Part shown: piece after piece, positions 1 through 33,363 of the stretch
Position numbering within the stretch: the first letter of the stretch is position 1
Layout: the number at the start of each line of letters is the position of its first letter
NCBI GenBank assembly: GCA_025928885.1
Contig: JAICIM010000006.1
Location: forward strand, 1-33,363
Direction of reading: 5' to 3'
Origin: Ktedonobacteraceae bacterium
Lineage (GTDB): Bacteria > Chloroflexota > Ktedonobacteria > Ktedonobacterales > Ktedonobacteraceae
Length of the DNA stretch: 33,363 nt
Program-made: the position numbers and the translations under genes
The notes under the pieces: generated by a model
What the model saw: the letters and a program-made list of their open reading frames with translations, nothing else
Told to the model about the DNA's origin: nothing
The model's database searches: none

Positions 1-613
1 GGATATTTTGCAACTATACCGCCAGCAACCCCTCAGCACACGCTCAGGACAAGATACAGTTTCTCTCTGGTCACCCGATGTGGCAGCCCGCTTAGCACAA
101 GAGGAGACCTGGGAAGAGACGCTGCACGCACGTAAGCTAGCACGGCAGGCGGCAAAGTTCGCCGATCAGCGCCTCGGCTGGCACTATCTCGACCTCCATC
201 TCCGCTTGCCCGATCTGCTTGTCGGTCCAGCTCAGCAACTCGCCATACAAGAACGCATGGCGATACGCACGCCATACCTCAATACCGATGTGATGGAGAT
301 GCTGACGCGGCTCCCTTCCAATGATGAAGGTGATAAGGCTGTTTTGTTGCAAAATCTGTTACAAAGATACGTGCCAGAGAGCGCGGGTTCTCCGCTCCCA
401 CTCAGCGGCCCGATGGCATCGCTACAACACGTCGCCGATTCAGAGCTGCTCCAACAAACGCTTTCAACCGAAGCGATACAGACGACGGGGATTTTCAATC
501 CTCAACTTGTGGAGAACTTGCTGAAAGAGAAGCTGACAGACGCGAACAGGCGCAAATTGCTGCTGGTATTTACGACGCAGCTAGTGTGCCAGATTTTTGG
601 GCTGAGTTTGTAA
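1..613 (+). CDS. Asparagine synthase-like protein, C-terminal part (truncated by window start)
   Basis: Frame is open to the window edge. 'YLDLHLRLPDLLVGPAQQLAIQERMAIRTPYLNTDVMEMLTRLP' resembles the asparagine synthase C-terminal segment (…D.-sMa-s-E-R-PfLD…), but only weakly. Confidence 0.6.
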   Translation, partial: DILQLYRQQPLSTRSGQDTVSLWSPDVAARLAQEETWEETLHARKLARQAAKFADQRLGWHYLDLHLRLPDLLVGPAQQLAIQERMAIRTPYLNTDVMEMLTRLPSNDEGDKAVLLQNLLQRYVPESAGSPLPLSGPMASLQHVADSELLQQTLSTEAIQTTGIFNPQLVENLLKEKLTDANRRKLLLVFTTQLVCQIFGLSL

Positions 614-1285
614 TACATCTGATGGTACTTCAAAAAGCTTACAGAACCATTGTAATAGAAGTTGAGCATGTATGGATTTAATATCGACAAATCGTTTTGT
701 TATGGCAAGCCCCATTGGTTTTCCAGGTTCTTTTTGCCAGGCAAGCCAGGTGTGAAGGCAGGCTTTACTTTTATATGTGGGACGAAAATGAGCGCCTTTT
801 TCAATCACCATCTGCACAATATCTTCAGCCATAGGCCAAAAAATATCATCAACAGGGCGCAAAAAACTGATAAAATCCTCCATCATCCCTGGGAACCGAT
901 TATCCGGCATCAGCCAGACTCCCACAATTGGTAGAGTTTCCTGTTTCATAATTGTACCTTGAGGATCTGGCTCTAAGGGGATTTCTCTATAGCCTGTACT
1001 TCTTAAGATCTCATATAACTTTTGCCATGTTTTGCTCAGATCGGTATCGACATCTATGACAACACCAAAACGTTGAGCATAACCACTTTTGAGAGCAATC
1101 TTTAATGCTGCTAGGAGCTTATCAACACCTTCATGTTCATTAATATTAAATTGTTCTTTTCTTCTTTCAAAAACATCAATAATATTGTAGCAATTTAATA
1201 AACTTCTAAATACAGCCTGGTCATCCCTACCTTCCACATAGAGAAAGTTCCTGAGACTTTCCTTGCTCATCAAGCTATCGCTCAA
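581..1285 (-). CDS. TOPRIM/DUF3226-like (OLD-family TOPRIM) protein, partner of the adjacent ATPase
   Basis: 'FLYVEGRDDQAVF' (TOPRIM Glu motif) and 'GVVIDVDTD' (DxD). The TTG start abuts the ATPase stop codon; an alternative ATG lies at 1270. Confidence 0.7.
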   Translation of the reverse strand: MSDSLMSKESLRNFLYVEGRDDQAVFRSLLNCYNIIDVFERRKEQFNINEHEGVDKLLAALKIALKSGYAQRFGVVIDVDTDLSKTWQKLYEILRSTGYREIPLEPDPQGTIMKQETLPIVGVWLMPDNRFPGMMEDFISFLRPVDDIFWPMAEDIVQMVIEKGAHFRPTYKSKACLHTWLAWQKEPGKPMGLAITKRFVDIKSIHAQLLLQWFCKLFEVPSDVLQTQPKNLAH

Positions 1286-2446
1286 TTACCTCACCTCTAT
1301 CTGTTCCCTGGTTGCAATCGCCAACTCTTCTTCGTTGTACAACGTAGCACTGATTTCACCATTTCTGCTTTGCAAGCGAATAAGAACTCCCTCTTCTTGC
1401 TTATCCTCTTGCGCAGCCTTCTGAAACCCTTCAATACAATCCCAACTATGCGTAGTGGCAAAAACCTGCACATTGAGGCGGTGAGCAATCTGGAAAATCA
1501 ATCGCCAGAGATCAGCTTGCACAGAATAGTGTAAGCCATTCTCGAACTCATCAATGAGCAACATACCATCTCTAGCATTGACCAGCGCTAATGCGATACC
1601 TAGCGCACGCTGCATACCACCACCTAAACTAGCAAGAGGGATTGGCTCCTTAATGCCTGTAACCTTTACAATTGGAATAGCTGTGCGCTGCTCTTGATCT
1701 CTCAAGCTAACTTCTCTAATAAGGCGCTGACGGAAATTAGTATCACCAACAAGATTCAAACGCTCAATACCAGGAGCAATAATACGCAATGCGGTAAGTA
1801 TATCTGTTTCGGCTTCTCGGAGTACAACACCATCCCAAAGATTCTCTAACAGTCCTCGATCTAGCCCATTAGCGGTTATAGAAATACAATTAAATCTATT
1901 CGATCCGGGAAATCCCGCTCTTCCCAGAGAATAATTTCTACTCACCTCCTTAAAAGAGACAATAAAACGAGGAATAGGATTTTCTGCGCTATCATATTCC
2001 TCCGGTTGGAGCAATCTTAGTCTTCTGATCCCTTCCTCCTCATCCGTCTCCATCATAAACCAGCCAATCGAAAGATTGAGCGAATCTGTAACAGAGTGCA
2101 TTGGCCCAATTACAACAGGAGCAAGCCTCAAGCCAATATTTATTTCTTCCCGTCCATAAAACAAATACTTCAATCCTGTAAGTTGACTGCTTACCTCAAC
2201 GTCGCCCAGCACGCGAGATTCTCGATCATACGGATCATATCCGCTCTCATCGCGGCTGCGTAAAAGTTGCCGTATTACATATGGATCAGCTCCGGTCGCA
2301 TAAATTTGCAGAGCATCAAGAAGGCTTGATTTTCCCACATTATTCTTACCCACCACCAGATTAACTCTTCCCAGCTTCTCTATTTGCAACTGGCGAAAGC
2401 CGCGAAAACCCTGAATTTCTAATGAACTTAATATGAGTTTTCCCAT
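1286..2446 (-). CDS. AAA family ATPase (AAA_15/AAA_21, OLD-like)
   Basis: Walker A 'GKNNVGKSS', signature-like 'LASLGGGMQRAL', Walker B 'MLLIDEFENGLHY', H-loop 'FATTHSWD'. Confidence 0.88.
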   Translation of the reverse strand: MGKLILSSLEIQGFRGFRQLQIEKLGRVNLVVGKNNVGKSSLLDALQIYATGADPYVIRQLLRSRDESGYDPYDRESRVLGDVEVSSQLTGLKYLFYGREEINIGLRLAPVVIGPMHSVTDSLNLSIGWFMMETDEEEGIRRLRLLQPEEYDSAENPIPRFIVSFKEVSRNYSLGRAGFPGSNRFNCISITANGLDRGLLENLWDGVVLREAETDILTALRIIAPGIERLNLVGDTNFRQRLIREVSLRDQEQRTAIPIVKVTGIKEPIPLASLGGGMQRALGIALALVNARDGMLLIDEFENGLHYSVQADLWRLIFQIAHRLNVQVFATTHSWDCIEGFQKAAQEDKQEEGVLIRLQSRNGEISATLYNEEELAIATREQIEVR

Positions 2447-12889: not shown

Positions 12890-12954
12890 CGTGACGGCTT
12901 TGTGAGAAGAAGGTAGCTTGCTGTGATTGCGCTGTAACTTTTTTCAGGTGTAAT
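12890..12954 (+). promoter_or_regulatory. narK promoter: four-half-site direct-repeat box plus -10
   Basis: CGTGA 12890, TGTGA 12901, TGTGA 12922, TGTAA 12933 (spacing 11-21-11); -10-like TGTAAT at 12949-12954. Confidence 0.7.
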
Positions 12955-14246: not shown

Positions 14247-14280
14247 GGGGCCATGCCTGATACGCATGGCCCCTTTTTAT
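14247..14280 (+). terminator. Intrinsic terminator of narK
   Basis: GGGGCCATGC (14247-14256) / GCATGGCCCC (14264-14273) followed by TTTTTAT. Confidence 0.9.
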
Positions 14281-16853
14281 TCCTCCACAGCACACGTTTC
14301 CGCCGGATCTGAGAGGGACAGCGTGAGAAAGAAGGTCGATCCCTTATTCTCTAGCGACTCAAACCAGATATGGCCGCCCAGCCGCTCGATGAGTTCGCGA
14401 CAGAGATACAGCCCCAACCCCGTCCCGGTAATGCCATACATGCTGGCGTTTTCGGCCCGGACAAAGCGACCAAAGATACGCGGCTGCTGCTCCTGGGGAA
14501 TACCAATACCATAGTCGCGGACGCTGATCTGAGCCATTTTTTTCTCGCAGCCTCCCTCGATGGTGATATCCACCGGCCCCCCTTGCGGACTATATTTCAC
14601 TGCATTCGTAATGATGTTCGTTAATACCTGTTCCAGGCGTTGAACATCGGCCTCGACGATGAGATAGGGCAAATCAGTATGGAGCGATAGCGTGTGCTTC
14701 TCAGTGGTCATCTGGAGCCGCGTGACAACGCGACGCACCAGGGCAACCAGATCGCACGGTTCGTTAGAGAGATGCAGGCGACCGGCCTGCAACCGCGTCA
14801 CATCGAGGAGATCTTCGGTCAGGGCAACGAGGCGCACCGTCGCTTGATCGATATTTTGCAGCGCCTCCATCTGCCAATCGGCCAGTTCCGGGCCATTGCC
14901 GCGTGCCGTCTGGCGAATCAACATCTGAGCATACCCTTTGAGGACGGCAACAGGGGTTCGTAGTTCGTGGGCCGCGATCCCGATAAATTCATCCTTGAGG
15001 CGCTCCGCCTCTTTTAAAGCCGTCACATCCTGATGCACCACCAGCGCAGCCAGTTCCGAACCATCATCTGCTTCGTTCATATCAGAGAGCGGCAACAGCT
15101 TGAAATGCTTCATTTGTAGCGGCACAGCGTTCACCAGAACCGGCAGCGTCGTACCATCGGCGTGGCGAATGCTTTCCTGATGGTAATATACAGCCTCTCC
15201 CTGCTGGACCGCCCGCAGCGTCGCCAGTTGTGGGAGAGGCTGCTCTCCCCCATCAACGCTTGAGATGCGAATGTTGTTCTCACACAGAAACTCACACATT
15301 GGCTGATGTGTCGGCCAGACGGCACCCCATAATGTGGCGGCAGCCCGATTTGCCAGTACCAGGCGGGCCTCGGGACCATGCACCAGATAGACACTGCTGG
15401 GTAGCTCATTGAGGATCAATTGTAACAGAGCACGCCGAGCCTCGGTCTCGGCATGGATCGCACGTTCTTTCAGCAGACGCCGCACCTCCGTGACATCATG
15501 CCAGACAATCACGGCTCCCGACGCGCTCTCTGGATCGTACGACCTGCTTTTTTCGCGGCTGAGCAGGCGAGTCACAAGCGTGGTGGGCAGGCGCAACGGT
15601 GCCACATTCACGATGTATTCGCGGGTCTCCTGTGTCTCGTCGGTAACGCTGACCGCGATATCCGGTTCTCCCGCGTCGTTGAGCGCGTTGCGAACCGGCG
15701 CATACAAGAGCGCCTCCAGCGCCTGTTTGCCCTCAGCTGTGTTCTCAAGTTGTTTGCGCAGCCGATGAGCCGCACCGTTCTCGCGCAAGATCTGCCCCTC
15801 TGCATCGGCCAGGATCACGCCATCGGCAATGCTCTCAAAGGTTGCGTTGAGTTCCTGGGCGTGCAACTGCTCGACTCGATAGAGCCGCGCGTTCTCTAGC
15901 GCAATCGATGCCTGAGCGCTCAGGCCAACCAGTAGCGCCTCGTCCTCTAGCATAAAGTGGTCCGGCTCATCATGGCCCAACAGCAGCCCTCCACAGACCT
16001 CGCGCTCACGATTCAAGAGGGGCGCACCAAGAAAGCTGCGCATTCCCGGGTGGCTTCTGGGGAGATGAGTCGAGCGCGACTTCGCGTTCATCAGCTGTTT
16101 ATGGACCTTCTCGAAGTTCGTCTGGGATATCGCAAGAATATCGGGGATACGCACCGGCACCCCCTGTCGAAAGATCGGTGCAAGCAATCCCTTTCCACCC
16201 AGCGGCATTCTACGCAACATCTCTTCCTGCTCTGGCGTCACGCCAACCACCGCTGCCAGATGAAACCGGTCGCCCTCTGACGGCCCCAACAATTGCCCCA
16301 ACTCATCGGTCGGGCGCAGCGTGAAGGCGGCGATAGAGGCCCCCGTCAAATCACGAGCTGTACGTGCAATCAGATTGAGCAACCGCTCTTCATTTAGTTC
16401 GCTACTCAGAGCCGCCCCCACAGAATGGAGCGCAGCTATACGCTCAGTCTCATGCTCGGCAGCCGCTCGCCGTTCGCGGGCAAGTTGGACGAGCGCCAGC
16501 ACAAAACCGGTTGCCCCGGCCAGGATAAGCAATTGCACTACATCCTGGACAGTTGGAATCTTCAAGGCTCCACGGGGCGCGAGAAAGAAGAGATACACGC
16601 AGAACAACTGCAAGAGGGCAGCAATAATCGCATGGATAGCTCCCCAGTGATAGGCCAGCATCGCCACCAGAGGCAGGTAGATCAAACCAGGATTGGGCAG
16701 CGTCACAACAGTATGGTCGAAGATCCAGATACAGAGCGTTGCCAGTACTGTACCGCCTGACAATGTGGCCGCCCCCGAATAGGGGGTGTGTTGCCACTGG
16801 GTGATGATGGCTCGGCAATGAGCGACAAAAGGAGATTTGAACAAGGTACTCAT
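14277..16853 (-). CDS. Membrane sensor histidine kinase HK1 (KdpD-like DUF4118 TM domain, GAF, PAS, HisKA, HATPase_c)
   Basis: TM region 'LATLCIWIFDHTV…LATGFVLALVQLARERR', GAF 'ALSSELNEERLLNLIARTA…MRSFLGAPLLNRE', 'FIGIAAHELRTPVAVLKGYAQML', N-box 'EQVLTNIITNAVKYSPQGG', 'GTGLGLYLCRELIERLGG'. ATG at 16853. Confidence 0.93.
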   Translation of the reverse strand: MSTLFKSPFVAHCRAIITQWQHTPYSGAATLSGGTVLATLCIWIFDHTVVTLPNPGLIYLPLVAMLAYHWGAIHAIIAALLQLFCVYLFFLAPRGALKIPTVQDVVQLLILAGATGFVLALVQLARERRAAAEHETERIAALHSVGAALSSELNEERLLNLIARTARDLTGASIAAFTLRPTDELGQLLGPSEGDRFHLAAVVGVTPEQEEMLRRMPLGGKGLLAPIFRQGVPVRIPDILAISQTNFEKVHKQLMNAKSRSTHLPRSHPGMRSFLGAPLLNREREVCGGLLLGHDEPDHFMLEDEALLVGLSAQASIALENARLYRVEQLHAQELNATFESIADGVILADAEGQILRENGAAHRLRKQLENTAEGKQALEALLYAPVRNALNDAGEPDIAVSVTDETQETREYIVNVAPLRLPTTLVTRLLSREKSRSYDPESASGAVIVWHDVTEVRRLLKERAIHAETEARRALLQLILNELPSSVYLVHGPEARLVLANRAAATLWGAVWPTHQPMCEFLCENNIRISSVDGGEQPLPQLATLRAVQQGEAVYYHQESIRHADGTTLPVLVNAVPLQMKHFKLLPLSDMNEADDGSELAALVVHQDVTALKEAERLKDEFIGIAAHELRTPVAVLKGYAQMLIRQTARGNGPELADWQMEALQNIDQATVRLVALTEDLLDVTRLQAGRLHLSNEPCDLVALVRRVVTRLQMTTEKHTLSLHTDLPYLIVEADVQRLEQVLTNIITNAVKYSPQGGPVDITIEGGCEKKMAQISVRDYGIGIPQEQQPRIFGRFVRAENASMYGITGTGLGLYLCRELIERLGGHIWFESLENKGSTFFLTLSLSDPAETCAVEE

Positions 16854-16984
16854 GCTTGCATTTTCCGTTTTTATGTCAGACGTATCTTCTCTGAGCAGGA
16901 TCATACTATTCTTATTGGAGAGCATAGCACGATGAATACTCCGATGCAAGGTTGCTCTTTCTTCCCTTCTATCCCCAGCGAGAT

Positions 16985-17049
16985 TGTGACCGAAATGTGA
17001 GATTGAGAGATTACTTTGTGACAATGTTGATATCAAGCAGGAATATACT
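16985..17049 (+). promoter_or_regulatory. USP1 promoter: direct-repeat box plus -10
   Basis: TGTGA 16985, TGTGA 16996, TGTGA 17017 and a degenerate fourth site TGATA 17028; TATACT at 17044-17049. Confidence 0.7.
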
Positions 17050-17130: not shown

Positions 17131-18153
17131 ATGTTTCAGCGTATTATCGTCCCTCTGGACGGATCAAGCCGTGCCGAGCGTGCTATTCCAGTGGCCGCCA
17201 ATCTCGCGCGTGCCTCACAAGGATCGATCGTTTTTCTGCGGGTCGTTATCCCCGCGCATAGTGTAGGATTTTACGGTGCGGAGCCAGCGGTGGGAGTCGT
17301 ACCCACCATCCTTGAAACCAGCATTGCAGAAGCCGATAGCTATCTCACCTCGGTTGCCACCGTTTTCCGCAACTATCTCAAAGGTATTCGGGTAGAAACG
17401 GAAGTAGAGACCGGCTCAGCAGCATCGACCATCCTGTCTGCCACTCGTTGGGAGCATGGAGACCTGATCGTGCTATGCAGTCACGGCGATACAGGTTTGA
17501 AGCGCTGGATCTTCAATAGCATTGCCCTTCAGGCAGCTCGCAAGAGTCCTGTGCCGGTACTGATCGTCAACGAACATGGTGAGACTCACCCGTTGGAAAA
17601 TCTGACACATCCACTGCATGTCATGGTGGCGCTGGATGGTTCAATGCTGGCCGAGATCGCCCTGAACTCTGTGGTACACCTGATGACCGCCCTGAACCCG
17701 ACGGGACAGAACACGCTGCACCTGCTCCGCGTCATTGATGTTCCCGTTGTGAATGGCAGTATGAGGGGACATACACAACTCGAACCGCTCATTCGCGAGA
17801 AAGCCTGCACGCAGGCAAAAGCCTACCTGGAACAGGTGGTGAAACTTCTGCAAGAAGAGGTTCAGAGCAAGGGAACACTGGCGATCACTACATCGATTGT
17901 TGTTAGTTCTGATGTTGCTGGCGCCATTATCCAGCAGGCAGAAGAGAACACATGTGACCTGATCGCCATTGCCACACATGGGCGCGGCGGCCTGATGCGC
18001 ATCCTTATGGGCAGCGTCACCGAGCGTATTCTTGGCTACACCAAACTGCCGCTCTTCATCGTACGACCCCACGAGGCTGTAGTGGAACACAGCGAAGCAC
18101 ACGATCTTATCGCAGATGAGCGTGAGCTACCATCCTGGGTAGGTCTCCTCTAG
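17131..18153 (+). CDS. Tandem universal stress protein (USP1)
   Basis: Two UspA domains: 'FQRIIVPLDGSSRAERAIPVAANLA' and 'LHVMVALDGSMLAEIALNSV', ending 'LIAIATHGRGGLMRILMGSVTERILGYTKLPLFIVRP'. Confidence 0.95.
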   Translation: MFQRIIVPLDGSSRAERAIPVAANLARASQGSIVFLRVVIPAHSVGFYGAEPAVGVVPTILETSIAEADSYLTSVATVFRNYLKGIRVETEVETGSAASTILSATRWEHGDLIVLCSHGDTGLKRWIFNSIALQAARKSPVPVLIVNEHGETHPLENLTHPLHVMVALDGSMLAEIALNSVVHLMTALNPTGQNTLHLLRVIDVPVVNGSMRGHTQLEPLIREKACTQAKAYLEQVVKLLQEEVQSKGTLAITTSIVVSSDVAGAIIQQAEENTCDLIAIATHGRGGLMRILMGSVTERILGYTKLPLFIVRPHEAVVEHSEAHDLIADERELPSWVGLL

Positions 18154-18155
18154 AC

Positions 18156-18220
18156 TGAGATGTGTTCGTGATATTGTACAGTATGTTTGAGAGTTGGCTG
18201 TGACAGGAAAGACGTATGAT
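18156..18220 (+). promoter_or_regulatory. Weaker sixth copy of the direct-repeat promoter box
   Basis: TGAGA 18156, CGTGA 18167, TGAGA 18188, TGTGA 18199 (11-21-11); TATGAT at 18215-18220. Confidence 0.45.
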
Positions 18221-25899: not shown

Positions 25900-26937
25900 T
25901 CAGTGCTGCAAGAGATATGTCCGCTCCTTCTCCATATCAGGTACTTTATGGGTATGCAGCGTGTCAACCGGACGTACGATCAGAATAGGCAGCGTTGTGG
26001 CGTGCAATACACGCTCTGTAATGCTCCCCATCGTCCAGCGCATCAATCCGCCTCGTCCATGTGTTGAGATGGCGATCAAGTCGCAAGGACCAAACGTTTC
26101 TAAGCCATCCTTACTCGGACCGTGCTCAGCAATATTGACCAGCGCACTCGCGACATCATCATCAAGTGAGACCGACCAGGTAACGGAGATATGACGCTCC
26201 GCCATGCCTGGCACAATATATCCTTCGCTCAATTGCTCAGCGGTTAAGCTCAAGTAATGGCTGGCCTTATTGAGGTCTCCCATACGCGGTGAAAGCTCCT
26301 CTTGATGTTCGTCCCCATGATGTGCAGGTTTCACAATACGCGCCAGATGCAGAGTTCCCTGCAACTGGTTGCTCGTCAAGGCTGTGAGCAGGTCTGTAGC
26401 AGGTTCAAGCGCACTCTTCGCATGAGTGGAACCATCTAATGGAACCAGCACACGCAAGGATTTCGAGCCAGCCGCCAGGCGTAATGGTAATTGGGAACCT
26501 TCACGCAGAATCAAGACGGGTGTGGTTGCATACCTTGCAATTTTTTCGGCGATACTCCCTATCAACCAGCGTGTGACACCGCTATAGCCGTGGCTACAGA
26601 TCATAATCAAGTCGGCAGCATACGAGCTGGCAACCGAAAGGATCGTCGAGGCGACCGGCCCAAATTGTGTGACCGTTTTTACCGCAACCCCGGCAAGTTC
26701 AGGGGACGAAGCAATGGTCGCCAGATAGCTTTCCGCCTCCGCTAATTCGCCGTCAACAGCTGCCTGCGCCATCGACGGATAGGGAGTCGTAATGGCAGGC
26801 CAGTAGTCGGTGGCAAGGCTGACGACACGCACGAGCACAAGCATCCCTTTTGTATTACGTGCCAGCCGCGCCGCCATCGGAAGGACGGACTCCGCACGTG
26901 CAGAGCCATCCAGTGGAACAAGAATATTTCGATACAT
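25900..26937 (-). CDS. Tandem universal stress protein (USP2)
   Basis: 'YRNILVPLDGSARAESVLPMAARLA', 'LRVLVPLDGSTHAKSALEPA', 'LIAISTHGRGGLMRWTMGSITERVLHATTLPILIVRP'. ATG 26937 preceded by GGAGG. Confidence 0.95.
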   Translation of the reverse strand: MYRNILVPLDGSARAESVLPMAARLARNTKGMLVLVRVVSLATDYWPAITTPYPSMAQAAVDGELAEAESYLATIASSPELAGVAVKTVTQFGPVASTILSVASSYAADLIMICSHGYSGVTRWLIGSIAEKIARYATTPVLILREGSQLPLRLAAGSKSLRVLVPLDGSTHAKSALEPATDLLTALTSNQLQGTLHLARIVKPAHHGDEHQEELSPRMGDLNKASHYLSLTAEQLSEGYIVPGMAERHISVTWSVSLDDDVASALVNIAEHGPSKDGLETFGPCDLIAISTHGRGGLMRWTMGSITERVLHATTLPILIVRPVDTLHTHKVPDMEKERTYLLQH

Positions 26938-27058
26938 CTTCACTCCTCCTAATTTATGCGGACTCGATTGTTAATTGCTGCGAACGCTGCCAACCGATCT
27001 GGCTCTCCACTCCGGGATAGAGGCGGTCTGCTTCCTACAAATACGTTGCGTTGAGCAC

Positions 27059-27123
27059 AGTATAGTATTCGCCACTAACGGTCAGATCACAACAAAGAAC
27101 GTCTATCTCACGGCTCCATCACA
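27059..27123 (-). promoter_or_regulatory. USP2 promoter: direct-repeat box plus -10
   Basis: On minus strand: TGTGA 27123-27119, CGTGA 27112-27108, TGTGA 27091-27087, CGTTA 27080-27076 (11-21-11); TATACT 27064-27059. Confidence 0.7.
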
Positions 27124-27183
27124 AGCTTATTGACAGCAGCGAGGCGGAACAGCTATGATGAAGAGGGTTATATATGCTCAGTT

Positions 27184-29457
27184 ATGAACAAGAGTGTTGC
27201 ATCAGAACAGCCAGAAAGAGAATCTATGCCATCGCAAGAGGTGAGCAAAAAGCTCCCAACGCCTGAACGTTTTGCTGCACTCAGTCGCGTAGGAGTAGCG
27301 CTTCTTAGCGAACTCAATGAGGAGCGACTTTTGCATTTAATCGCGGAAGCCGCATGTGAAATCACTGGTGCGACCTTTGCCGCCTTCACCTTACGCCCGG
27401 TCAGCGAAACCGGCCAGCCCCTTGTCCCTGCGGAGGGCAGCTTTTTCTATCTCGCCGCTATTGTTGGCGTCACGAAAGAGCAGGAGACCTTCTTTCGCCA
27501 TATATCGTTAGGTGGCGAGGGATTGCTGGCTCCCATTTTCCGTCACGGCGTCTCTGTGCGCGTCGATGATGTCCACACCCACCTCGATCCTGGCAATTAT
27601 AAGCAGGCCAAAAAGCAGGAACGAGCCACCGCGCAGGATCTCGCCTCAGCCTATGCGCAAGGCAAAATCTCCGCCTCCCAACTCCACTCAATGGGCGTGC
27701 CACAGGGCCATCCGATCATGCGCAGTTTCCTGGGAGCGCCCCTGCTGGATCGCGAGCGACAGGTACGCGGAGGATTACTCCTCGGGCATGCATTAGCTGG
27801 TCAATTCACTGCGGAAGATGAGCTTTTACTGGTTGCTCTGGCATCGCAGGCAGCCGTTGCTCTGGAGAACGGGCGGCTCTACCGCACTGCTCAGATCCAG
27901 GCGCAGGAACTTCAGGTTATTTTTGACAGCAGCGCCGATGGCATTACCCTTGTGGACAGCACTGGGCAGATCGTGCGTGAGAATCGTTCTGCTCAATACC
28001 TGCATCAACGGCTACAACAAGAGGCCGATGGAGCCAATGCCCTTGAACAATTGCTCTTCGCTCCAGCCCGTCTGTCCTTGCAAGCACAGGCGGAACAGCA
28101 GTATTCGGTCAGCCTTCAGCAGGGCGGCGAAACACACGACTATCTGGTTACGGCCTCTCCATTACGCCCGCCGCCTGAGACAAGCCCCCTCCTGTTAGGC
28201 ACACAGACCACCCCTCAGAACATCAGCGGCGCGGTCGTTGCCTACCATGAAGTGACAGAGATACGCCGCCTGCTTTCGATACAAAGAAAACAGGCTGAAA
28301 CGGAGGGCCGCGTCGCTCAACTACAACTTATTCTGGATGAGCTACCAAGCAGCGTCTATCTGGTGCGTGGACCTGATGCCCATCTGGTGCTGGCTAATCG
28401 AGCAACTGTGGGAATCTGGGGAGCGCAATGGCAACCGGGACAGGCATTGCAGGATTTTTTAGAGCGGCAACATATTCGCATTTTCGCTCCTGACGGCAAT
28501 CCGTTGTCATTTGAGAGTTTGGCAACCACACGAGCAGTTCGACAGGGCGAAACGGTCTATCATCATCAACAGGTGATTCGTCATCCTGATGGTTCCAATC
28601 TGCCAGTGCTGGTCAACGCGGTGGCGCTGGATCTACGCAGCCTGGATATCACGGTTCCTAGCGGTTCTCTACGCACTTCAGATCAACCCTCCTGGGCCGC
28701 GCTGGTTGTGCATCAAGATGTTTCCGCGCTCAAAGAGGCTGAGCAGCTCAAAGACGACTTCATCGGCATCGCCGCCCATGAGTTGCGCACTCCTCTGGCC
28801 GTGCTGAAGGGATTTGCCCAGACGCTGATCGTGCAGACTGCACGGCAGCAGGGGCCAGAACTGGCTGACTGGCAGATGGAGGCACTGGTGAGCATCGATC
28901 AAGCAACAATACGCCTGGTTGAACTGACCGACGACCTGCTCGATATCAGCCGCTTGCAAGCGGGGCGCTTAACCCTCCATCCCTCCTACTTTGATCTGGC
29001 ATCATTGACACAACGGGTGTTGACGCGCTTCCAGATGACGACCGAACGCCACCATCTGATGCTTCAGACAGACGCTGAATATTTTGTCGTTCATGCCGAT
29101 CAGGTACGCATGGAGCAGGTGCTCTCCAATTTACTTTCCAACGCAATCAAGTATAGCCCGAACGGTGGCCCCATCCAGCTGCGACTGGTCAGCGATAATG
29201 ATAATACGATTCTCAGCATTCAAGATAACGGCATTGGCATTCCCCAGGAGCAGCAGGTGTACATCTTTGGCCGCTTTGCCCGCGCCGAAAACGCCCGCAT
29301 GCATGGCATCAAAGGGACCGGGCTGGGGCTGTATCTCTGTCGCGAATTGATTGAGCAGCAAAGCGGACGCATCTGGTTCGAGTCTGTAGAAGGACAGGGG
29401 ACAACCTTCTACCTTTCCCTCCCCTCCATCGTGGAAAGTACAGACGACGAGTTGTGA
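27184..29457 (+). CDS. Soluble sensor histidine kinase HK2 (GAF, PAS, HisKA, HATPase_c), paralogue of HK1
   Basis: 'ALLSELNEERLLHLIAEAA…MRSFLGAPLLDRE', 'FIGIAAHELRTPLAVLKGFAQTL', 'EQVLSNLLSNAIKYSPNGG', 'GTGLGLYLCRELIEQQSG'. No N-terminal TM domain. Confidence 0.93.
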   Translation: MNKSVASEQPERESMPSQEVSKKLPTPERFAALSRVGVALLSELNEERLLHLIAEAACEITGATFAAFTLRPVSETGQPLVPAEGSFFYLAAIVGVTKEQETFFRHISLGGEGLLAPIFRHGVSVRVDDVHTHLDPGNYKQAKKQERATAQDLASAYAQGKISASQLHSMGVPQGHPIMRSFLGAPLLDRERQVRGGLLLGHALAGQFTAEDELLLVALASQAAVALENGRLYRTAQIQAQELQVIFDSSADGITLVDSTGQIVRENRSAQYLHQRLQQEADGANALEQLLFAPARLSLQAQAEQQYSVSLQQGGETHDYLVTASPLRPPPETSPLLLGTQTTPQNISGAVVAYHEVTEIRRLLSIQRKQAETEGRVAQLQLILDELPSSVYLVRGPDAHLVLANRATVGIWGAQWQPGQALQDFLERQHIRIFAPDGNPLSFESLATTRAVRQGETVYHHQQVIRHPDGSNLPVLVNAVALDLRSLDITVPSGSLRTSDQPSWAALVVHQDVSALKEAEQLKDDFIGIAAHELRTPLAVLKGFAQTLIVQTARQQGPELADWQMEALVSIDQATIRLVELTDDLLDISRLQAGRLTLHPSYFDLASLTQRVLTRFQMTTERHHLMLQTDAEYFVVHADQVRMEQVLSNLLSNAIKYSPNGGPIQLRLVSDNDNTILSIQDNGIGIPQEQQVYIFGRFARAENARMHGIKGTGLGLYLCRELIEQQSGRIWFESVEGQGTTFYLSLPSIVESTDDEL

Positions 29458-29518
29458 GCCATCCGTGATATGCATCTCCTCATACAGTGATGCATCTGTG
29501 ATCGCTGCTTGCTACACT
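29453..29518 (+). promoter_or_regulatory. D-LDH promoter: direct-repeat box plus -10
   Basis: TGTGA 29453, CGTGA 29464, AGTGA 29486, TGTGA 29497 (11-22-11); TACACT at 29513-29518. First half-site overlaps the HK2 stop codon. Confidence 0.65.
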
Positions 29519-31742: not shown

Positions 31743-31847
31743 CACTATCAACCTCGCACAGACGCGGCACACCTCCCATACATTGACAGGAGCAAATATG
31801 AATTTGCTATACTCTCAAAAAGGCTGTAACCACGCTGCGAGCAACGC

Positions 31848-31912
31848 TGTGATACATATGTGAGATAGCGTGATCTTGCTGTGATACGACAGTGAGATGA
31901 TCTCAGTATGAT
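31848..31912 (+). promoter_or_regulatory. Phosphoketolase promoter: direct-repeat box plus -10
   Basis: TGTGA 31848, TGTGA 31859, TGTGA 31880, AGTGA 31891 (11-21-11); TATGAT at 31907-31912. Additional TGTAA 31825 and TGCGA 31836 upstream. Confidence 0.75.
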
Positions 31913-32011
31913 AGGGGCAGGAAAGAAAGAAGCGAACATATACTCACTCGCTCATAAGATTTTTAGAACACCCTGCACGAGCGAGACAAACATATTCCGG
32001 TTAAGGAGTAG

Positions 32012-33363
32012 ATGATGTCAAAAATCGATCAAACGCGCTTACAATTAATGGACCGCTATTGGCAGGCGGCAAATTACCTTACCGTTGGTCAGATCTACCT
32101 GCAAAGCAATCCCTTGCTCAAAGAGCCACTGCGCCCCGAACAGATTAAACCGCGCTTGCTTGGCCACTGGGGAACCTCTCCGGGTTTAAGTTTCATTTAC
32201 GTTCACCTCAATAGACTGATTCAAGATCACAACGTCGATATGATCTATCTGGCCGGGCCTGGTCATGGTGGACCGGCTCTGCTGGCCAACGTCTATCTCG
32301 AAGGCACTTACAGCGAGATATACCCACGTATAACGCAAGATGAGGCGGGTATGGACCACCTGTTCCGCCAGTTCTCGACGCCCGGTGGCGTGCCGAGCCA
32401 TGTGAGCGTACCTACCCCCGGTTCCATCCACGAAGGCGGCGAACTTGGCTATGTGTTGAGCCACGCCTTCGGTGCAGCCTTCGATAACCCAAACCTGATT
32501 GTCACGGCTGTTGTGGGAGATGGTGAGGCCGAGACGGGACCGCTGGAAGGTGCCTGGAAAAGCGTCCGCTTCCTCAATCCAGAGCGCGACGGTGCCGTTC
32601 TTCCTATCCTGCACCTCAACGGCTATAAAATCTCCGGCCCTACCGTCTGGGGACGCTCCAGCGATGAGGAGATCCAGTCGTTCCTTTCAGGCATCGGCTA
32701 CGAGGTCTTCTTCGTCGAGGGCGATGATCCCATGACGATGCACCAGCTCTTTGCTGAGACGCTGGAGACCTGTTACGAGAAAATTCGCGCCTATCAAGAA
32801 GATGCCCGCAAAAATGGCTTTCAGGGCCGTCCGCGCTGGCCTGCAATCGTTCTGCGCACACCGAAAGGCTGGACCGGCCCCCACGAGGTCGATAATGTCC
32901 AGATTGAGGGTACCTTCCGCGCACATCAGGTTCCCGTATCCGAAGTCAAAACCAATCCAGAGCATCTCGCTATTCTGGAAAACTGGCTCAAAAGCTACCA
33001 TCCAGAAGAACATTTTGATGAGCGCGGCCACCTCGTACCAGAACTGGCAGCGCCGGCACCTCATGGCAATCACCGCATGGGAGCAAACCCACACGCCAAT
33101 GGTGGCAAACTCCTGATCAACCTCGTGTTACCCGACTTCACTGAATATGCCATTGATGTGAAAGAGCACGGCACAGAGCGTCATGAATCAACGCGCCAGC
33201 TCGGTAAATTCATGCGCGACATTTATGTACGTAATGCGCAGCACGAGAATTTCCGTCTGTTCTGCCCTGACGAAACCAACTCGAACCGGCTTGGCAACGT
33301 CTTCGAAGTGGAAAATCGCTGTCTGGTTGAACCCGTCCTGCCAAACGACGATCACGTTTCACC
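32012..33363 (+). CDS. xfp: Xylulose-5-phosphate/fructose-6-phosphate phosphoketolase, N-terminal part (runs off window end)
   Basis: My translation from ATG 32012/32015: '[35 protein letters not shown]…[22 protein letters not shown]…[27 protein letters not shown]…[60 protein letters not shown]'. Absent from the ORF track because there is no stop in the window. AGGAG at 32004. Confidence 0.96.

Follow-up and report, generated by a model that had tools for sequence, protein, structure and literature searches.

Introduction

The DosR hypoxia regulon of mycobacteria comprises universal stress proteins, Hsp20, a cation ATPase and oxygen-limitation genes, and DosR itself, of the NarL/LuxR type, recognizes a palindromic site. 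In another arrangement, the pho box lies directly before the -10 box and overlaps the -35 region, and tandem boxes are present in pstS.

Relatives of the OmpR type bind direct repeats, with 7-bp motifs and 4-bp spacers (PMC4832192); direct-repeat binding has likewise been described in a second study (PMC2648988). The PhoP operator of Mycobacterium tuberculosis is TCACAGC-N4-TCACAGC, and PhoP contacts DNA through Asn212, Val213, Glu215, Ser216, Tyr217 and Tyr220 (PMC4832192). The pho box of Escherichia coli PhoB consists of CTGTCAT direct repeats of 11 bp (PMC2648988). In the sensor DosS, the heme proximal histidine is His149, a numbering derived in this analysis from the construct (PMC4082495).

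In this study, a stretch of 33,363 nucleotides from a Ktedonobacteraceae bacterium (Chloroflexota), hereafter the window, was analyzed for an array of TGTGA words located upstream of a phosphoketolase gene. On the comparative evidence, these words are a real control site with fixed spacing that recurs across Ktedonobacterales. A search of the open-access literature yielded no account of a comparable regulon in Ktedonobacteria or Chloroflexi; the operator is of a kind already known, and the regulon appears to be undescribed.

Results

The array at the phosphoketolase promoter

The original prediction reported seven TGTGA-like words in steps of 11, 12, 11, 10, 11 and 11 bp, and all seven were found at those positions and steps. 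When words with at most one mismatch were chained in steps of 10-12 bp, the longest chain was 7 in the real window and at most 4 in 300 simulated windows (first-order Markov). The 32-bp repeat, described earlier as exact, is real; it covers 21 nt at 81% identity, and its identity is complete only at the ends, GCTGTGATAC and GTGAGAT. The features of the region are as follows.

31783-31813, plus strand: upstream promoter candidate TTGACA-N19-TATACT (TTGACA 31783, TATACT 31808-31813), weak and unproven
31825-31840, plus strand: extra words TGTAA (31825) and TGCGA (31836), in slots unconserved elsewhere
31848-31863, plus strand: distal direct-repeat pair TGTGA-N6-TGTGA (half-sites 31848-31852 and 31859-31863)
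31869-31873, plus strand: extra middle word CGTGA, in a generally unconserved slot
31880-31895, plus strand: proximal direct-repeat pair TGTGA-N6-AGTGA (half-sites 31880-31884 and 31891-31895), 32 bp from the distal pair and spanning the -35 region
31907-31912, plus strand: predicted -10 box TATGAT, at an offset conserved over 74 tetrads
32012-33363, plus strand: phosphoketolase (XFP) gene, continuing past the window end, with an AAGGAG ribosome site at 32003-32008

A 65-bp composite is the recurring unit

Comparative genomics defined the recurring unit as a 65-bp composite, TGTGA-N6-TGTGA-N16-TGTGA-N6-TGTGA-N11-TATRCT. Two pairs of 11-bp direct repeats are set 32 bp from each other and followed at a constant distance by a -10 box; over the loci scanned, the pair spacing was mostly 32 and sometimes 31 or 33, and the median distance from the -10 box to the start codon was 74 bp. 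The consensus half-site of 74 non-redundant tetrads was (C/T)TGTGA(T/G), and the only other strong signal among them was TATRCT at offset 59-64. Tetrads were selected with no part played by the -10 box; TA...T was found at this single offset in 56 of the 74, as against 0-4 at other offsets within 50-71. This signal is a -10 box, and the proximal pair occupies the usual -35 location. TATGAT, which the earlier reading overlooked, belongs to the array and sits exactly at the place predicted by the composite. The main phosphoketolase promoter is thereby placed, through the conserved -10 box, immediately 3' of the array, with a predicted transcription start at about 31919-31920. A second promoter had also been proposed upstream; its TTGACA and TATACT boxes are present, but they are separated by a 19-nt spacer and were not called by a sigma-70 scan that used spacers of 16-18 nt.

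The tetrad (GTGA at offsets 0, 11, 32 and 43) matched 18 times in the bacterium's own genome and once in the reversed-pattern control, while the full composite including the -10 box matched 17 times versus 0 (16 with at most two mismatches). A stricter tetrad searched in 251 genomes of the phylum gave about 95 matches versus 0 in the control, nearly all of them in Ktedonobacterales; outside this order, only four genomes contained a tetrad, one each. The own genome is a draft of 764 contigs and 85.7% completeness, so its regulon list is partial.

The set of composite promoters

The composite occurs in at least 16 places in the own genome. Six composites are in the window, in agreement with the earlier suggestion that the phosphoketolase promoter is one of a similar set. 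The other five are listed below.

29453-29518, plus strand: composite of the 2-hydroxyacid (D-lactate-type) dehydrogenase gene (29581); pair spacing 33, -10 TACACT
27059-27123, minus strand: composite of the universal stress protein gene 25900-26943; -10 TATACT
18156-18220, plus strand: composite with -10 TATGAT; a LacI-type gene begins 324 bp on, and the target gene is uncertain
16985-17049, plus strand: composite of the universal stress protein gene 17131-18153; -10 TATACT
12890-12954, plus strand: composite of the MFS transporter gene (13029); -10 TGTAAT

Gene starts were taken from a mechanical ORF caller. The composite at 16985 and the kinase gene 14277-17036, as called, share positions 16985-17036 at the start of the kinase gene, so the true start of this kinase is probably further downstream. 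Also in the window, a DUF3226 protein adjoins an AAA_15/AAA_21 ATPase (584-2446, minus strand), possibly a defence or mobile-element module.

In about a dozen relatives, phosphoketolase is preceded by a composite, with the same sense and spacing at 11 of the loci scanned; in some other phosphoketolase orthologues it faces the opposite way or is absent. One locus (L062) carries a sense composite at -106 and, on the minus strand, three pairs in the opposite sense spaced 31 bp apart at -148, -179 and -210 before phosphoketolase, possibly a larger array at a divergent promoter. A separate tandem repeat was observed in genome G000 (contig C198, 276-656), where TGTGAAGGCTTGTGA occurs six times, every ~72-75 bp.

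The candidate regulator

Tetrads are located around a kinase-regulator operon on contig C483.

Contig C483, locus L041, 6777-7532, minus strand: OmpR-family response regulator (Response_reg and Trans_reg_C) with a HisKA kinase in its operon

Orthologues of this regulator (62-80% identity) were found in 38 of 47 Ktedonobacterales genomes, and its nearest relatives outside the order, from Anaerolineae, are about 52% identical. The recognition helix GESHMLQVNxNRLRRK is almost invariant among the orthologues, and the closest solved structures are RegX3, RpaA, MtrA and PhoP. At ten loci from several genera, composites or tetrads stand before the kinase-regulator operon; in four genomes the regulator gene adjoins phosphoketolase. 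The bacterium's own tetrad upstream of the kinase is 32 bp from the called start, which would put the -10 box at or inside the called gene. On the same contig, rpoB begins beside the operon (L041, 9690-11162).

Regulator and tetrad also tend to co-occur. Among 30 Ktedonobacterales genomes, tetrads were present in 20 and absent from 4 with the regulator, versus 1 and 5 without it (Fisher p 0.005, only a guide as the genomes are related and partly incomplete). Exceptions are G001, which has tetrads but lacks an orthologue reaching the cut-off, and four genomes having the regulator without strict tetrads; these are for the most part drafts. Only 22 of 39 regulator neighbourhoods contain a tetrad with two mismatches or fewer.

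In place of the C483 protein, another OmpR-family response regulator, or a group of related ones, could recognize the same architecture. The own genome encodes about 29 OmpR-type regulators, so that a paralogue could bind instead, and two to four paralogues exceed the cut-off in several genomes; the tetrads of G001 without a close orthologue point the same way. However, the C483 regulator is the only one that shares a contig with a tetrad in the own genome, no tetrad was detected at ten paralogue loci checked (short loci of 2-3 kb), and both the linkage and the autoregulatory sites recur across genera. We consider a different regulator unlikely, and the C483 OmpR/PhoB-family response regulator is the best candidate for the composite.

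The three extra words

The original prediction regarded all seven words as functional units. This was not borne out, as the recurring unit contains four half-sites and a -10 box, and the extra slots are filled at about background level among the 74 tetrads (middle slot 4, -12 slot 6, -23 slot 2). A seven-unit array was rejected as the general unit. At the phosphoketolase promoter alone, a true seven-site array would spread extra dimers over 31825-31895 and allow a graded response; seven words are indeed phased there, and, once the four core sites are taken as given, the three extra slots would all be filled with a local chance of about 1e-4, a post hoc figure for slots picked after being seen. 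The phosphoketolase promoter of genome G005 also has a middle word, an exact TGTGA that lies one base off the slot. However, the 11-bp register is broken by the 12- and 10-bp steps, and a third pair placed 31-32 bp further upstream should lie at about 31816/31827 and not at 31825/31836. A seven-site array is thus improbable even for this one promoter, and the words at 31825, 31836 and 31869 are possibly due to chance or specific to it.

Direct repeats and the probable class of operator

Because TGTGA itself occurs more often than its reverse, the reversed-pattern control is weak for single pairs and was replaced by counts resolved by spacing. These covered 609 kb around the regulator orthologues, chosen by protein and not by motif, and were relied on in place of another spacing count that took in motif-picked loci. 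TGTGA direct repeats with a gap of 6 occurred 56 times versus about 2 at most other gaps, a direct repeat of ~11-bp period, as in OmpR/PhoB operators; pair spacings of 31 and 32 were counted 18 and 22 times, respectively. In 1.08 Mb of other bacteria, the TGTGA direct repeat was found once. The excess of direct over inverted repeats fits an OmpR/PhoB-type operator and argues strongly against a CRP palindrome. The C483 protein has the receiver and winged helix of this regulator class, and its assignment to the sites is by linkage only. The motif spacing also supports the earlier proposal of a helically phased, multi-dimer regulator site, which stands as a prediction. Although TGTGA is the classical CRP half-site, identical to that of E. 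coli CRP, a cluster of CRP/FNR-family half-sites was rejected as highly improbable, in that all four half-sites have the same orientation at fixed distances of 11 and 32 bp, and inverted TGTGA-N6-TCACA was found once in the 609 kb, the background level, versus 56 direct repeats.

Sensor kinases in the window

Two sensor kinases are encoded in the window.

27130-29457, plus strand: sensor kinase with a DevS/DosS GAF-A-like GAF domain and the histidine motif HPxMRxFLGxP; no adjacent response regulator
14277-17036, minus strand: sensor kinase (DUF4118, GAF, PAS), sharing this DevS-like GAF motif; no adjacent response regulator

For the GAF domains of both, the best solved-structure match was the mycobacterial DevS/DosS GAF-A (2w3d and others), and the position of the heme-ligating histidine was aligned. 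GAF/PAS kinases related to these two lone kinases are divergent beside the regulator operon in many genomes. The strict DevS-like histidine motif is present in just 4 of 37 related kinases; heme-based oxygen sensing by the window kinases is therefore a lead and not a result, and a heme-GAF kinase beside the regulator is not supported as a general rule.

Discussion

The genes located downstream of the composite in several genomes point to a common physiological theme. Cytochrome bd oxidase subunit I was found at three loci, pyruvate:ferredoxin oxidoreductase (PFOR) at two, Hsp20 at two and the NiFe hydrogenase small subunit at one. Other genes behind composites encode cation/metal P-type ATPases, alcohol dehydrogenase (ADH), flavodoxin and DoxX, as well as PRK12771-type flavoproteins, multicopper oxidases and universal stress proteins. 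From this gene set, we infer that the targets form a low-oxygen and energy-stress group responding to a signal of that kind. One response regulator probably switches on this set through the composite.

A mechanism can be proposed. The operon kinase and/or the GAF-PAS kinases of the window would phosphorylate the C483 response regulator, which would then bind as two tandem dimers on one face of the DNA, one per TGTGA-N6-TGTGA, with a distance of 32 bp (about three turns) between the pairs. The dimer on the proximal pair would cover the -35 region and recruit RNA polymerase to the predicted -10 box TATGAT, and the regulon switched on may include phosphoketolase, the D-lactate-type dehydrogenase, the universal stress proteins and others. 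Judging from the motif, its fixed spacing, the -10 box, conservation, co-occurrence and linkage taken together, it is fairly likely that the composite is an activator operator for two OmpR/PhoB-family dimers, likely of the C483 regulator, and that it serves a low-oxygen/energy-stress regulon.

If so, the little-studied soil bacteria of Ktedonobacterales (Chloroflexota) would gain a defined regulon with a candidate regulator and a 65-bp promoter code that allows any genome to be searched. A single predicted signal, low oxygen or energy stress, would tie together phosphoketolase, universal stress proteins, cytochrome bd, PFOR and NiFe hydrogenase; cultures of Dictyobacter or Tengunoibacter permit a direct test of this prediction.

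The closest operator is that of M. tuberculosis PhoP, which reads GCTGTGA-N4-GCTGTGA on the other strand and thus shares with the composite the 11-bp direct repeat and, almost letter for letter, the half-site; it is bound by an OmpR-family tandem dimer. The Ktedonobacterales system differs in the residues of the recognition helix (HMLQVNxNR in the C483 orthologues, aligned by eye), and in having two pairs at 32 bp with a fixed -10 box and another gene set. The PhoB pho box likewise has two 11-bp direct repeats, but its half-site is TGTCA where the composite has TGTGA, and the PhoB regulon concerns phosphate. Assignment to the PhoB pho regulon was rejected: the regulator scores 204 bits versus the TIGR02154 PhoB cut-off of 296, and the CTGTCAT half-site is lacking. 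By analogy, the composite works in the manner of tandem pho or PhoP boxes, but it is not part of a Pho regulon.

In gene content, the nearest counterpart is the DosS/DosT-DosR hypoxia regulon of mycobacteria (PMC4082495), with which the predicted set shares universal stress proteins, Hsp20, a cation ATPase and oxygen-limitation targets; hypoxia/dormancy genes recur among the predicted targets in several genomes. In sequence, the window kinases resemble DosS in their DevS-like GAF domains and in the aligned position of the putative heme-ligand histidine. In contrast to the NarL/LuxR-type DosR, the linked candidate of Ktedonobacterales is of the OmpR type and has direct repeats, so that the predicted regulon resembles that of DosR in content and not in regulator family. 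Ktedonobacterales may have independently built a counterpart of the DosR hypoxia/dormancy system, in which two cooperative dimers of a single OmpR-type regulator occupy a rigidly spaced 65-bp promoter, several kinases supply the input, and some of these kinases carry heme GAF domains of the DevS type; we find the balance for and against this view about even. Should the DevS-like sensors bind heme, this system and that of mycobacterial DosR would be convergent counterparts with different DNA-binding families.
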